From positions 822,513-886,512 of the forward strand of contig NZ_QPJS01000001.1 in assembly GCF_003337435.1 (NCBI RefSeq): a DNA stretch of 64,000 nucleotides. The letters run 5' to 3'. Under the pieces are notes generated by a model, which was given only the letters and a program-made list of their open reading frames with translations, had not been told where the DNA came from and searched no databases. Positions 3,506-62,962 of this stretch are shown one piece after another. This DNA is from Schleiferia thermophila. GTDB lineage: Bacteria > Bacteroidota > Bacteroidia > Flavobacteriales > Schleiferiaceae. Both the position numbers and the translations under genes were made by a program. Position 1 is the first letter of the stretch; every line of letters starts with the position of its first letter.

Positions 3506-3712
3506 ATGAAATTCAGAAGACCCTTTACTGAGCTGAAAGAGGGAATTGACTACTACAAAACTTCAGAAGGCTATATCGTTTACACCGCAAAATATCACCT
3601 CGACAGAGGATATTGTTGCCAAAGCGGTTGCAGACATTGCCCTTATGGTTTCAATAAATTGACCGGAAAATTTGATAGGCCCGGGAAAAGGTCAGAAGAT
3701 CATCTATCCTGA
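3506..3712 (+). CDS. DUF5522 small cysteine-rich protein
   Basis: A 68-residue protein recognised by its core RGYCCQSGCRHCPYGF (about residues 32-47), the hallmark of the DUF5522 family. The four cysteines and one histidine in 13 residues suggest a metal or Fe-S site, but I know of no established function. Its ATG comes one base after the queA stop, so it is almost certainly co-transcribed and perhaps translationally coupled. The pairing with queA is common in Bacteroidota, so a link to tRNA modification is possible but only inferred. It ends about 70 bases before the convergent glycosylase gene. Confidence 0.85.
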   Translation: MKFRRPFTELKEGIDYYKTSEGYIVYTAKYHLDRGYCCQSGCRHCPYGFNKLTGKFDRPGKRSEDHLS

Positions 3713-48927: not shown

Positions 48928-50288
48928 AGTCTGAAGCCGTAAGGGATCACTACCGGGAAAACTTTCGTTTGGCCTGGCCAGTGATGATTGGCCAGCTTGG
49001 ACAAATCACCGTATCCGTAGCTGATAATGTAATGGTAGGTCAGTTGGGGACCGAACCTCTGGCTGCTGCATCCCTGGTCAACGGATTATTTACCGTCGTA
49101 CTTGTTTTTGGGATAGGAGTAGCATACGGTTTGACTCCTTTGGTAGCCAATGCCCGCGGTGCAGGAAAGAAGCATCTTTTACCAGGACTGCTGAATGCTT
49201 CGCTGTGGGTAAACCTTTTTACTGGTGCAGCTTTGTTTTTGATCCTTCTGATGCTGAATCCGGCTTTGAACCACATGCGGCAGAATCCCCAGGTTGTGGA
49301 GCTGGCTGCACCTTACCTGAGCATCACCGGACTGTCGGTAATTCCGATACTGGGATTTTTTGCGTTCAAACAATTTGCAGAAGGATTAGGTCATACCCGC
49401 CAGGCTATGCAAATCACCATTGCCGTCAATGTGTTGAATATTGTACTGAACTATTTATTGATTTTTGGCAAGTTTGGTTTTCCTGCACTGGGTTTAAATG
49501 GTGCGGGCTATGCAACTCTCATCTCCAGGCTGGTCATGTGGGCCGCTATGGCTGCATTTGTCCTGCACAGCAGGCTGTTCAAAGGCATAGACTTTACCTT
49601 TTCGCTGCCGGGAGTTCAACGGCGTACTTCCTATGAAATTCTCAGTATAGGAGTGCCTTCAGGTTTTCAGTATATTTTTGAGGTGAGCGCATTTGCTGCC
49701 GCATCTGTACTGGCGGGTATGATCAGTCCGGCCAGTCAGGCAGCGCATCAGATCGCCATCAATCTGGCTTCTATTTCGTATATGGCGGCCACCGGTTTGG
49801 CCGCAGCATCTACCATACGCGTAGGCCATTTGTTGGGCATGCGCGACAGTTTCAACCTCCATCTGGCAGTCCGAACCATTCTGGTCATGACGGTCACCTG
49901 GATGACGTTTGCCGGTTTGGTATTTCTTTTCGGAAGGCATTTCTTCCCGACTCTATACAGCAGCGATCCGGAGGTGCTTCAGATAGCCAGATCTCTTTTG
50001 ATCGTGGCGGTTTTTTTTCAAATATCCGATGGGGTACAGGCCGTAGGACTGGGTGTGATGAGAGGGCTGAAGGATGTAAAAATTCCCACATTGATCACTT
50101 TTGTTTCGTACTGGATTTTTGCTATGCCCGGCAGTTGGATTTTTGGTGTGAGGTTGGGTGGGGGAGTGGTAGTGATCTGGTACTTTCTCGCCATTGGGCT
50201 TACCGTATCGGCTGCTTTGCTCCTATGGCGCTATCGGGTTGTGATTACGCGGCTCCATACCGTTCATAACGAAAACCAGACACTCTAA
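48924..50288 (+). CDS. MATE-family efflux transporter (NorM-like)
   Basis: A 454-residue inner-membrane protein with 12 predicted helices in two similar halves. The MATE landmarks are WPVMIGQLGQITVSVADNVMVGQLG (about 17-41) and in the second half PSGFQYIFEVSAFAAASVLAG, with the cation-related polar residues of helices 1 and 7. It exports drugs or metabolites against sodium or protons. It starts with TTG at 48924, overlapping the preceding nucleotidase gene, so it depends on coupled translation. The next stretch (50289-50744) has no gene: it holds a candidate small RNA and a riboswitch. Confidence 0.92.
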   Translation: MKSEAVRDHYRENFRLAWPVMIGQLGQITVSVADNVMVGQLGTEPLAAASLVNGLFTVVLVFGIGVAYGLTPLVANARGAGKKHLLPGLLNASLWVNLFTGAALFLILLMLNPALNHMRQNPQVVELAAPYLSITGLSVIPILGFFAFKQFAEGLGHTRQAMQITIAVNVLNIVLNYLLIFGKFGFPALGLNGAGYATLISRLVMWAAMAAFVLHSRLFKGIDFTFSLPGVQRRTSYEILSIGVPSGFQYIFEVSAFAAASVLAGMISPASQAAHQIAINLASISYMAATGLAAASTIRVGHLLGMRDSFNLHLAVRTILVMTVTWMTFAGLVFLFGRHFFPTLYSSDPEVLQIARSLLIVAVFFQISDGVQAVGLGVMRGLKDVKIPTLITFVSYWIFAMPGSWIFGVRLGGGVVVIWYFLAIGLTVSAALLLWRYRVVITRLHTVHNENQTL

Positions 50289-50310
50289 AATTTAGGTACG
50301 AACTTTTCAC

Positions 50311-50395
50311 TATATTTGTACAGGCAAACAAAATGGGGGGTTTTGTTTGTGTTTTCATGTGTTTTGTGTAGGGCGCTGTGAAGCGCCCTATTCCT
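50311..50395 (+). ncRNA. Candidate small RNA: promoter, G-loop hairpin, terminator-like hairpin
   Basis: TATATTTG (50311-50318) is a -7 element predicting a start near 50325. Exactly there begins a perfect nine-base hairpin, CAAACAAAA (50325-50333) with TTTTGTTTG (50341-50349), around the loop TGGGGGG. A second perfect hairpin, TAGGGCGCT/AGCGCCCTA (50369-50377 and 50382-50390, loop GTGA), is followed by TTCCTTT. The unit would be a ~70-nt RNA with no gene in it beyond a 12-codon frame. I do not recognise a known family. It could instead be the 3' end of the MATE transcript. Confidence 0.45.
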
Positions 50396-50521
50396 TTACA
50401 GAGCTTACCCGGCCTATCCTATGAATTACGGGCCGTAGCCTTTTTAGCTACGAAACATGGCTGCAAACTGACCTCCGACGGAGCCGGTGCGCAATATTGT
50501 ATCCACATTGGTTTTTCTGAT

Positions 50522-50529
50522 TACCTTTG
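50522..50529 (+). promoter_or_regulatory. -7 promoter element (TACCTTTG) of the B12-uptake transcript
   Basis: TACCTTTG lies directly before the riboswitch; the predicted transcript start (~50536) coincides with the first base pairs of the aptamer. A TTG stands 22 bases upstream. Between 50391 and 50521 only a small hairpin (CGTAGC/GCTACG, 50434-50452) is seen. Confidence 0.5.
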
Positions 50530-50533
50530 CAGC

Positions 50534-50699
50534 GTCTGCAGGTGGCTGTAAAAAGCCTTAATAGGGAATGCGGTGCAAATCCGCAACTGTACCCGCAGCT
50601 GTGAGCTTCAACAAAAAGGTCTGACATCAGAAGCCACTGTTCTGCCAGCAGAATGGGAAGGCAGTCCGACCGAAGCAAGTCAGAAGACCTGCCGCAGAC
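50534..50699 (+). promoter_or_regulatory. Cobalamin riboswitch
   Basis: The aptamer is closed by GTCTGC (50534-50539) pairing with GCAGAC (50694-50699). Inside are the conserved cobalamin-box parts: TAATAGGGAATGCGGTGCAA and AATCCGCAACTGTACCCGC early on, GCCACTG (50633-50639), TGGGAAGGC and the final GAAGCAAGTCAGAAGACC. It binds adenosylcobalamin and represses expression of the downstream genes. About 45 bases separate it from the receptor ATG, with no strong terminator, which suggests control at translation start. I inferred the box by recognition, without a covariance search. Confidence 0.95.
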
Positions 50700-50744
50700 A
50701 GTAAATCAACCGCTTGTCTCTCGGGAATAAGGGACAGCCAGGAT

Positions 50745-52631
50745 ATGAAGAAACACATATTTACGACAACCCTGATATTGCAGGGATTTATTTGTTTTGG
50801 GCAATCGTCCTTGTTGCCTGAAGTGGTCGTTACGGCATCCAAAGCGCATTTCAGTGCTATTGAGCCGATAGAGTACACATGGGACAGTTTGGCAGCCAGG
50901 CACAAGGACCAATTTTCCCTGGCCGAAATATTGAGATTGTACTTACCCGCTCATGTCAGATTGTACGGTCCGGGATTGATCAGTACCATCAGGGTCAGGG
51001 GTCAGAGCTCTGAACATTTTAAAGTGGTCTGGAACGGACTATCGCTCAACAATGCTGCTCTTGGACTTTTTGACTTTTCCGGTGTTCCAGCCTTACTTTT
51101 TGACCATTTACAAATGTATCACGGGAATTTGGCCGGCTTTTACGGGTCAGGCTCGGGCAGTGGTGCCTTGGTGCTCAACGACTTGCCGGTAAAAAAAGGA
51201 TTTTCCGTGAATGCACTTCAAGCGGCAGGTTCCTTTGGGTATCGTCAGAGAATTGCATCTTTGGAGTCTTCCGCGGGCAGGTGGTCCTTGAAAGTGGTCA
51301 ATCAACTTCAATACGCGGACAACAATTACCCTTTCAAAAATTTATCCAATCAGCTTCAGCCGCTTGCTAACGGGGGATATATTCATCACAATGTTACAGC
51401 CGGCGCAATTTACCGGCTCTCGGATAAATCGGCCGTCAACATATCGTCCTGGTTTCAAAATTCGGCCATCAGCATTCCTCCCTCCAGAGTAGAATCGCGT
51501 TTCAATACTTCCCGGCAGTGGAATAGGAACCAGAGAAGTGTAATCAACTACACCTTTACCGGCACAAAACTGAGGCTCGCAGCCGGTGGCGGGGCTATTG
51601 CTGAGCAGATAGTGTATCATCATGACCTGCTAGGACTGAAGGACACCAGCGAAGTCAACGGATGGCAATTCTTCGCAAGGGGTGCTTTTTCAGCTGGAAA
51701 AAGGTCTAATGTTACCTATAATGCTGAGCATCACCGATATCAGGCACCCTCTGCCAATAGACTTCCTGAAGTGGGAACGCATATCAGTCTTTTGAACGCC
51801 GGCTATGAATACCAGCTCACCGATGCGCTGCAGCTCAGTGCTACGCTGCGCAACGAATGGCAGGATGGCAGGGCTTCTCCGCTAATCGCACGATTGGCCG
51901 GGCGCTACAGCGTGGCTAATTGGAGCATCCAAGCTACTGGAGGCAATCACTTTCGCTGGCCCACTTTGAATGAAAGGTATTGGGTACCGGGAGGAAATCC
52001 CAACATCTTGCCGGAATCAGGTTACACTGCTGATGTAATGATTTCCTATGCCTCGAAAAAACATCGGACGGAAGGAAAAATTTTCCTGACGCCTTTCGTG
52101 CAATCTTTAGAAAACCAAATCATCTGGCAGCCTCAGGGCAGTCTCTGGTCTCCGGTTAATCTGAGAAAAACATTGGCAGGTGGAGCGGAAACACGCGTAG
52201 AAGGCAGCGTACAGCTCTTCTCAAATACATTGGCTCACTTAATAGTTGCCTATACATACTGCCGAAATGTGATCCAGGGGTCAGATGCAGCAGCCGGCAA
52301 ATTGGCCATTTACACCCCGCAGCACATCGGAAATGCACATCTAGGCGTAAAGACACAAGTGTGGCATGCAGGTGTACAAATGGTGTATCAATCTTCCCAA
52401 CACACGCTCTCCGACAATCACCCATCCGGAATCTTGCCCGGATTTACAGTGTTGAACTTATTAGTTTCCAGATTTGTGTCCCTTCAGAAATTCACCCTCA
52501 GACTCAGCGGTGAAGTGCGCAATCTGGCAAATACGGAGTATGCGTACATACCGCACAGGCCTATGCCTGGCCGCGAATTTAGATTTACCCTGAACCTTCA
52601 GTTTACTAACCCTAAATACACCAAATCATGA
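50745..52631 (+). CDS. BtuB-like TonB-dependent cobalamin receptor
   Basis: A 628-residue outer-membrane receptor: signal peptide (about 1-20), TonB-box-like LPEVVVTASK (about 23-32), plug domain (about 50-160 with IRVRGQSSEHFKVVWNGLSLN) and a 22-strand barrel ending in aromatic-rich FRFTLNLQF. It has no carboxypeptidase-like domain, as is usual for BtuB. The riboswitch directly upstream identifies the substrate class as cobalamin or a related corrinoid. The stop overlaps the BtuG-like gene by four bases, so surface lipoprotein and receptor are made together. Confidence 0.9.
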   Translation: MKKHIFTTTLILQGFICFGQSSLLPEVVVTASKAHFSAIEPIEYTWDSLAARHKDQFSLAEILRLYLPAHVRLYGPGLISTIRVRGQSSEHFKVVWNGLSLNNAALGLFDFSGVPALLFDHLQMYHGNLAGFYGSGSGSGALVLNDLPVKKGFSVNALQAAGSFGYRQRIASLESSAGRWSLKVVNQLQYADNNYPFKNLSNQLQPLANGGYIHHNVTAGAIYRLSDKSAVNISSWFQNSAISIPPSRVESRFNTSRQWNRNQRSVINYTFTGTKLRLAAGGGAIAEQIVYHHDLLGLKDTSEVNGWQFFARGAFSAGKRSNVTYNAEHHRYQAPSANRLPEVGTHISLLNAGYEYQLTDALQLSATLRNEWQDGRASPLIARLAGRYSVANWSIQATGGNHFRWPTLNERYWVPGGNPNILPESGYTADVMISYASKKHRTEGKIFLTPFVQSLENQIIWQPQGSLWSPVNLRKTLAGGAETRVEGSVQLFSNTLAHLIVAYTYCRNVIQGSDAAAGKLAIYTPQHIGNAHLGVKTQVWHAGVQMVYQSSQHTLSDNHPSGILPGFTVLNLLVSRFVSLQKFTLRLSGEVRNLANTEYAYIPHRPMPGREFRFTLNLQFTNPKYTKS

Positions 52632-62145: not shown

Positions 62146-62962
62146 TTTTATAGACGTAATCATTTTTTCCTACTCTTTTGGCTTTTCGGTATTTGCCCCG
62201 TTTTTTGAGTGGTTTCTGGCCTCCATACGCTGTATTTGCATCTCAATAGAGTGTGGTCAGCCCCGTTGTTTTTTTTTATTTTTTTGACCCACGAATTTTT
62301 AAAGCATAATGTTGTTCTCAAGCGCAAAAAAGCAATATCCATTATTTTTTATTTTTTAGGGCATAAGGATCATCATCAATGCATTTTTAATACAACAAAA
62401 CTAACATCACTTATTTTACAAATTTTGCGTTTTAAATTTTATCTTTTCGTAAATTTTATTTGTAGCAACATGAATTTGAATCCGTTGATTCGCTACACTA
62501 CAAAATCCCTTTTTTAAAAAGGATTGAACGGAGGGTTTCTACCTTCGCAAGGATGGTTGATTACTAAGCAACCACCTGAAATTTTTTTTTATTTGGAGAC
62601 AAATCCAAACAGCAATGGATTTAGTACTAAACGCTTCGGTATCTGATTCAAAATTTCATTTGATAAAACTTATTTTGGAGTAAATTGTCTAAGTATAATT
62701 TTTTTTTGCCGTCCTGGTAGGGACTTCCCAATTGTTCCCTATCTATTATTTTATGTGAATTTAGCGGTAAAGAATCCAGGCTATTTTATTCTATAAAGAG
62801 ATCGCTAATACAGATACAGATCATCGCAAAACGCATGACCAATATTTTACTTAAATGACGGTACTTTTTGTGTTGTAATACCCGGAGCTAATGCTATCGC
62901 CCGGGAGCCGTATGTCATCGGATAGTTGATGTGAAGGCAAGGCTTGCGGGCCATATGGGAAG
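62146..62962. other. Long AT-rich non-coding stretch with several hairpins
   Basis: No gene is supported in these 817 bases. Hairpins are seen on the plus strand: TGTAGC...GCTACA (62461-62497, with GAAT/ATTC inside), AATCC/GGATT around a run of T and A (about 62500-62525), and TGGTTG/CAACCA followed by AAATTTTTTTTT (about 62553-62590), which resembles a terminator. ATGAC/GTCAT bracket another structure (about 62854-62917) next to the methylase remnant. Together they could be an unrecognised RNA or decayed sequence. Confidence 0.4.

Follow-up and report, generated by a model that had tools for sequence, protein, structure and literature searches.

The gap between a MATE gene and a cobalamin riboswitch in Schleiferia thermophila (genome of 2.6 Mb in 23 contigs) raises the question of what is encoded by two exact hairpins that follow a promoter-like box at this place. 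A sequence-only reading of the window, i.e. the whole 64-kb stretch of DNA analyzed here, had described the box, both stems and a TGGGGGG loop, all of which are present at the positions given. The element spans 50324–50390 of the forward strand, comprises two hairpins and an unpaired linker downstream of a TAnnTTTG box, and starts 35 nt past the MATE stop codon. As judged from the comparisons below, the stretch from 50324 to about 50395 very probably encodes a trans-acting small RNA, some 70–75 nt in length, that represses translation of a porin/DUF4212 operon. Its features are as follows:

50311–50318, +: −7 box TATATTTG (TAnnTTTG, Bacteroidota-type promoter), with a predicted start at ~50324
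50324–50350, +: hairpin 1 (fold prediction), 11 pairs with a G-rich loop, sealing the predicted 5' end
50335–50340, +: G6 loop of hairpin 1, common to both genera compared, predicted second contact with porin codons
50352–50369, +: linker TTTTCATGTGTTTTGTGT, the putative seed, complement of the porin mRNA and of the DUF4212 start
50367, +: covarying base U (G in Thermaurantimonas aggregans), predicted to pair with A(−9) or C(−9), respectively, in both targets
50369–50390, +: hairpin 2 (fold prediction), 9 pairs with a GNRA loop, probable terminator
50391–50398, +: 3' tail TTCCTTTA, presumed transcript end, T-richer in T. aggregans

Conservation in a second genus

Hairpin 1 is built from the stem CAAACAAAA/TTTTGTTTG around the TGGGGGG loop, and fold prediction extends this stem to 11 pairs. 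Hairpin 2 reads TAGGGCGCT–GTGA–AGCGCCCTA, with a GUGA loop that is GAGA in T. aggregans. The S. thermophila fold is better than 200 of 200 dinucleotide shuffles (z −3.99). The T. aggregans fold is weaker on the same test (z −2.96, with 4/200 shuffles equally good). In the predicted folds of both copies, the linker between the hairpins is unpaired.

A DNA search of 149 genomes (the source genome included) returned one strong further match, which lies in T. aggregans, a member of the same family (Schleiferiaceae, Flavobacteriales) but of a different genus (93% over 75 nt, E 3.5e-25); a 33-nt match in G127 follows at E 7.8e-4. The two copies are identical in 67 of 71 aligned columns, and the ungapped identity of their flanks amounts to about one third (13/38 nt upstream, 32/100 nt downstream). 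Moreover, the blastn match, which runs through MATE, ends where the element ends (50397). At four-fold codon sites, identity is 23% for MATE (184 sites), 31% for the porin (178 sites) and 35% for DUF4212 (23 sites); hence, silent sites have nearly reached saturation, and strong selection acts on the element. Two of the four differing columns reflect the replacement of a U·G closing pair in hairpin 1 by A-U plus an added U, while the others are the change from GUGA to GAGA and a U to G exchange in the linker.

A covariance-model search of relatives, as proposed by the sequence-only reading, likewise recovers the copy from the second genus, with the G6 run kept in both. The model (R1) was built from these two sequences and strict filters were applied in searches of more than 40 genomes, so that distant relatives may be missed. 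Among 88 family genomes, strong matches are confined to S. thermophila and T. aggregans, with one match each (E up to 1), and six other genomes give weak ones (E 0.11–0.78, best 22.5 bits). Of 395 sampled genomes from the order, G596 (39.1 bits, E 1.5e-5) and, with a lower score, G127 (26.3 bits, E 0.0064) gave matches; 395 sampled genomes from the phylum gave four weak ones of 23.5–25.3 bits, none with the full seed. The G596 match was rejected as a homologue: three pairs of hairpin 1 are broken, the alignment is gapped and the TTTTCATG seed is absent. It corresponds to a hairpin (1501–1568 of its locus) that overlaps the terminal part of an apparently msrA/B-like gene (by eye), and this gene faces a convergent one. 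A score of 39 bits without the seed illustrates a trap for searches with models built from few sequences.

The position of the element is also conserved. In T. aggregans it again lies directly 3' of MATE, and the next gene (ABC-F-like by eye) is convergent. MATE matches occur in 112 of the 149 genomes; at 28 other inspected MATE loci of the family, the element is absent and the following sequence is different. Several family members carry a BioY-like gene (by eye) directly after MATE, where S. thermophila and T. aggregans have the element.

No Rfam family matches at gathering score over 50311–50395 or at the T. aggregans copy. Coding on the forward strand (from an ATG in hairpin 1 or a GTG in the linker, by eye) was rejected since these frames are not kept between the genera. 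The candidate small RNA of the earlier reading is well supported as such: its position, sequence and fold are shared by two genera, and it belongs to no Rfam family at gathering score.

Predicted pairing of the linker with two start codons

The linker is U/G-rich and complements the mRNA from about −11 to +7, i.e. across the AUG, of a porin gene and a DUF4212 gene. In both genomes these genes are adjacent, with sites 1.5 kb apart and the linker match antisense to the start codons; the S. thermophila linker recurs exactly over 17–18 nt in its own genome and almost exactly in T. aggregans. The perfect complement comprises 18 nt for the porin and 17 nt for DUF4212 in S. thermophila, and 17 and 18 nt, respectively, in T. 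aggregans. Both partners have low predicted opening costs, with 3.0 and 5.6 kcal/mol for the linker and 0.2–2.3 kcal/mol for the targets, and in both genera a seed predicted to be accessible is found together with conserved target complementarity.

The target cluster encodes, in this order, a porin-like outer-membrane-type protein of 503 aa, a DUF4212/Na_symport_sm subunit and a VC_2705-family Na+/solute symporter (887 bits). The 503-aa protein has no Pfam match and a weak match to the porin ExtI, below the cut-off. Intergenic gaps of 32 and 22 nt make a porin–DUF4212–symporter operon likely. The RNA is encoded away from its putative targets, on contig C1 versus C4 in S. thermophila and C3 versus C8 in T. 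aggregans. The substrate could perhaps be a monocarboxylate such as acetate, a guess from weaker matches of the symporter to acetate/monocarboxylate transporter models. In the open-access collection searched, no work on DUF4212 was found, and none of the titles of its papers on Schleiferia thermophila and Thermaurantimonas concerns a small RNA.

Among 613 sampled start regions (325 from S. thermophila, 288 from T. aggregans), the perfect complement to the linker reaches at most 10 nt and none attains the pairing energy of the two targets; the sample consists of ATG-initiated longest frames of at least 120 aa (47 of the 325 from the window), genes as short as DUF4212 being excluded and the choice of starts being approximate owing to the longest-frame sampling. 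A whole-genome search with the 16-mer of the linker, allowing at most two mismatches, found 13 places in S. thermophila and 10 in T. aggregans, the element itself included. At zero or one mismatch, S. thermophila has only the element and the two target start codons, and in T. aggregans a single site with a 9-aa frame joins the corresponding three. Among the remaining places, one belongs to a plausible full gene, a response regulator of S. thermophila with −14.4 kcal/mol; the others are without start codon or have frames of 2–98 aa (88- and 98-aa frames among them). Moderate energies were obtained for four T. aggregans sites: L154 (−28.9 kcal/mol, 13-aa frame), L144 (−26.8 kcal/mol, 9-aa frame), L156 (−26.0 kcal/mol, 88-aa frame) and L152 (−25.9 kcal/mol, 2-aa frame). 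The exact sequence AAAACACATGAA occurs at four places in S. thermophila and six in T. aggregans, element and both targets included. The extra site in S. thermophila heads a 32-aa frame. In T. aggregans, two of the extra sites (complement of ~12 nt) are likely to be gene starts, with a frame of at least 501 aa in one case and at least 219 aa in the other, and the third heads a 2-aa frame. On both strands of the window, only the linker complements either target over at least 13 nt.

Relatives of the targets served as a further control. Porin relatives are present in 26 of 88 genomes, including S. thermophila and T. aggregans. Leaving aside L186, another copy in G043, 24 loci of relatives were processed, five of which are uninformative because the wrong gene was retrieved (L170, L177, L182, L183, L184). 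None of the 19 usable loci, in whose genomes no RNA was detected, shows the complement at the porin start; the best reaches −25.0 kcal/mol, near the weakest true target (−25.2 kcal/mol) but without long complement. Likewise, the complement is missing from the DUF4212 start at 12 loci of relatives in which no RNA was detected (one genome contributes two copies), with a best value of −22.5 kcal/mol. The 13-nt core is antisense to apparent single gene starts in four genomes without a detected copy of the RNA (G004, G006, G035 and G045). U-rich complements are favored by the A-rich start regions of these bacteria, which raises the chance of such partial matches.

Conceivably, then, the element could be only the terminator region of MATE, with its complementarity a side effect of A-rich starts. 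Its place directly after MATE in both genera and the likeness of hairpin 2 to a terminator stem would fit; yet a terminator needs neither a fixed 18-nt linker nor a G6 loop, the 28 other MATE loci do without the element, and a complement of 17–18 nt over two start codons by far exceeds that of the sampled starts. We regard this explanation as improbable.

The strongest single evidence for direct pairing by a small RNA is a natural base swap. The linker ends in ...UUUUGUGU in S. thermophila versus ...UUUUGGGU in T. aggregans, and position −9 is A in both S. thermophila targets and C in both T. aggregans targets, which suggests the exchange of a U-A for a G-C pair or the reverse. With its −9 base matched to the linker base of its own genome, each of the four targets pairs better with its own linker than with that of the other genus (−31.3/−28.9, −25.2/−22.9, −40.0/−34.0 and −34.7/−27.5 kcal/mol). 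The compensatory change concerns one base, at both targets, in two lineages; as the element occurs in only two genomes, covariation rests on two sequences, with one seed base and one hairpin pair.

A concerted change at one base in three similar sites of 17–18 bp per genome might also be expected if these were bound by a DNA-binding regulator whose preferred sequence has shifted between the genera. However, two of the sites coincide exactly with start codons, in opposite sense to the element, and one of these two falls within the likely operon, between porin and DUF4212. The third is unpaired in the predicted fold, between conserved hairpins downstream of a promoter-like box and in the orientation of an antisense RNA. 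Such a regulator is therefore very improbable.

According to the proposed small RNA mechanism, transcription would begin at hairpin 1, expose the 18-nt linker as seed and end at hairpin 2. The seed would then pair across the AUG of two consecutive cistrons, porin and DUF4212, covering from −11 to +7 the start codon and most of the stretch just before it. This could block binding of the 30S subunit and would repress, rather than activate, uptake of the substrate. The large subunit of the symporter would likely follow the repression of porin and DUF4212.

A possible second contact of the G-rich loop

The sequence-only reading had suggested that the exposed G6 run could pair with C-rich sequences such as a Shine-Dalgarno complement. 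As main pairing site this was dropped, since the linker provides the strong complement and the fit of the loop to DUF4212 is ordinary. On the porin mRNA, the loop seems to act as a secondary contact, and its predicted partner is the motif CCC(C)UC, which lies among the first codons, ~20 nt into the coding sequence. If the loop and the 3' arm of hairpin 1 are added to the linker, the porin duplex reaches −48.2 kcal/mol in S. thermophila and −53.4 kcal/mol in T. aggregans, compared with −32.8 and −35.9 kcal/mol for the best sampled gene. The extended DUF4212 duplex (−32.9 and −37.6 kcal/mol) barely exceeds these latter values. When loop and arm are paired with the codons alone, the porin is equalled by 0/325 and 1/288 sampled genes, and DUF4212 by 114/325 and 207/288. 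For the G6 contact, hairpin 1 must be assumed to open or to form a kissing interaction; cofold predictions for both genera open it for the porin and keep it closed for DUF4212. By eye, the porin leaders of both genera contain, besides the site in the codons, a further copy of the motif CA(G/A)AACCC ahead of the start codon (locus L130, ~3685–3710, −; locus L131, ~2500–2530, +), which is a possible alternative docking site for the loop.

Promoter-like box and 3' end

The TAnnTTTG box matches the promoter consensus described in PMC7366714 and, taken by itself, predicts the start at ~50324. TAnnTTTG alone is not above chance in the window (46 seen, 54.7 expected), and no −33 TTTG element is evident by eye upstream of the box; its weight comes from TAACTTTG in T. 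aggregans, which is found within one base of the place held by the S. thermophila box. At the 3' end, a terminator scan of 50250–50750 detected no T-tract terminator. Hairpin 2 is followed by TTCCTTTA in S. thermophila and by TTCTTTTTCTT (by eye) in T. aggregans. It is a probable terminator, although the S. thermophila tail is weak for an intrinsic one.

Alternatively, an RNA with the same seed and targets may be processed from the MATE 3'-UTR and lack a promoter of its own. The short distance to the MATE stop codon (35 nt) and the chance frequency of TAnnTTTG in the window would agree with such an origin. Nevertheless, the place of the box is kept within one base although the upstream 38 nt are otherwise unconserved (13/38), and processing from MATE is therefore rather unlikely compared with transcription from a dedicated promoter.

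The functional transcript might also derive from the opposite strand and act as a decoy by mimicking the start regions of the targets. Its sequence does resemble the porin start region and includes short frames of 37 and 34 aa, but coding on this strand was rejected because these diverge after the first few residues, and both the promoter-like box and the T-rich end belong to the forward strand. A decoy is barely conceivable.

Comparison with known small RNAs

RbpB, which is relevant to the comparison below, is an RRM protein. Neither the RRM_1 nor the Hfq profile gave a match in S. thermophila or T. aggregans (for Hfq and RRM_1, controls were positive in 5/14 and 2/14 genomes). The RNA may hence act alone, helped by its long seed, or use another protein. 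That it works without Hfq or RRM protein, with one seed on two start codons and a G6 lock on the porin mRNA that together give more than 30 bp of near-continuous pairing, is in our estimation an even matter.

According to PMC7366714, Bacteroidota mRNAs lack a classical Shine-Dalgarno sequence and are enriched in A at −3, −6 and −11 to −15. In PMC11697453 and PMC7366714, those trans-acting small RNAs of Bacteroidota whose targets have been identified come from gut Bacteroides. FopS of Bacteroides thetaiotaomicron is reported to pair at the start codon of the porin SusC, which heads its operon, and to block translation (PMC11697453). The RNA described here resembles it in being a Bacteroidota small RNA predicted to pair over the start of a porin-like outer-membrane protein gene that heads a likely operon. 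FopS differs by its 14 paralogous copies, a seed near the 5' end, targets that are first cistrons, and by being bound and counteracted by RbpB, as described in PMC11697453. The present RNA has a single copy per genome, a 5' end predicted to lie in an 11-pair hairpin instead of an open single-stranded seed, a linker seed, two consecutive cistrons as putative targets, RRM_1 in 0/2 genomes and no Hfq match, and its porin, without Pfam match, gives no sign of being SusC. GibS, also of B. thetaiotaomicron, shares a long seed over start codons of metabolic mRNAs and pairs in vitro without protein cofactor; it is distinguished, in the description of PMC7366714, by a mainly single-stranded 5' seed (positions 1–38), two meta-stable hairpins and other targets. 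The earlier statement that no similar family exists is accordingly valid with respect to Rfam, while FopS and GibS act in the same way. By analogy, the element would encode a trans-encoded small RNA that works like FopS and GibS and is set apart from that family by the features compared.

A related arrangement may be seen in GcvB of enteric bacteria, which likewise presents an unpaired G/U-rich stretch between hairpins to the C/A-rich starts of transport genes. GcvB is larger, depends on Hfq, controls many mRNAs and often pairs upstream of the start codon, as in the case of yifK. The unusual parts of the present RNA are one seed on two consecutive start codons and a loop-borne second contact, neither of which is claimed to be unprecedented; a search of the same open-access collection found no report of one small RNA targeting both cistrons. 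If the proposal is correct, a single seed is able to serve two cistrons of the same operon in bacteria with neither classical Shine-Dalgarno sequences nor the known RNA chaperones tested, and start-codon control of outer-membrane uptake extends beyond Bacteroides through a differently built RNA. The proposal is directly testable in this RNA from Flavobacteriales, for which the targets are predicted, the pairing sites are given exactly and a compensatory change has arisen naturally.

Neighboring RNA elements

The position beside a B12 riboswitch, which the sequence-only reading had mentioned, is not shared by the T. aggregans copy. Here, a cobalamin riboswitch at 50522–50710 (106.7 bits) is the nearest Rfam match to the element and precedes a gene for a TonB receptor with weak BtuB similarity. 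A search of the 3,075 bases around the T. aggregans copy, which reach 1.5 kb to either side, gave no such riboswitch, and the riboswitch is a mere neighbor of the element. The Rfam match begins with a TACCTTTG box of its own (50522–50529), so that the riboswitch probably has a transcript separate from the small RNA. Elsewhere in the window, a DUF805 RNA (RF03081) scores above its gathering threshold at 62163–62231 of the reverse strand.
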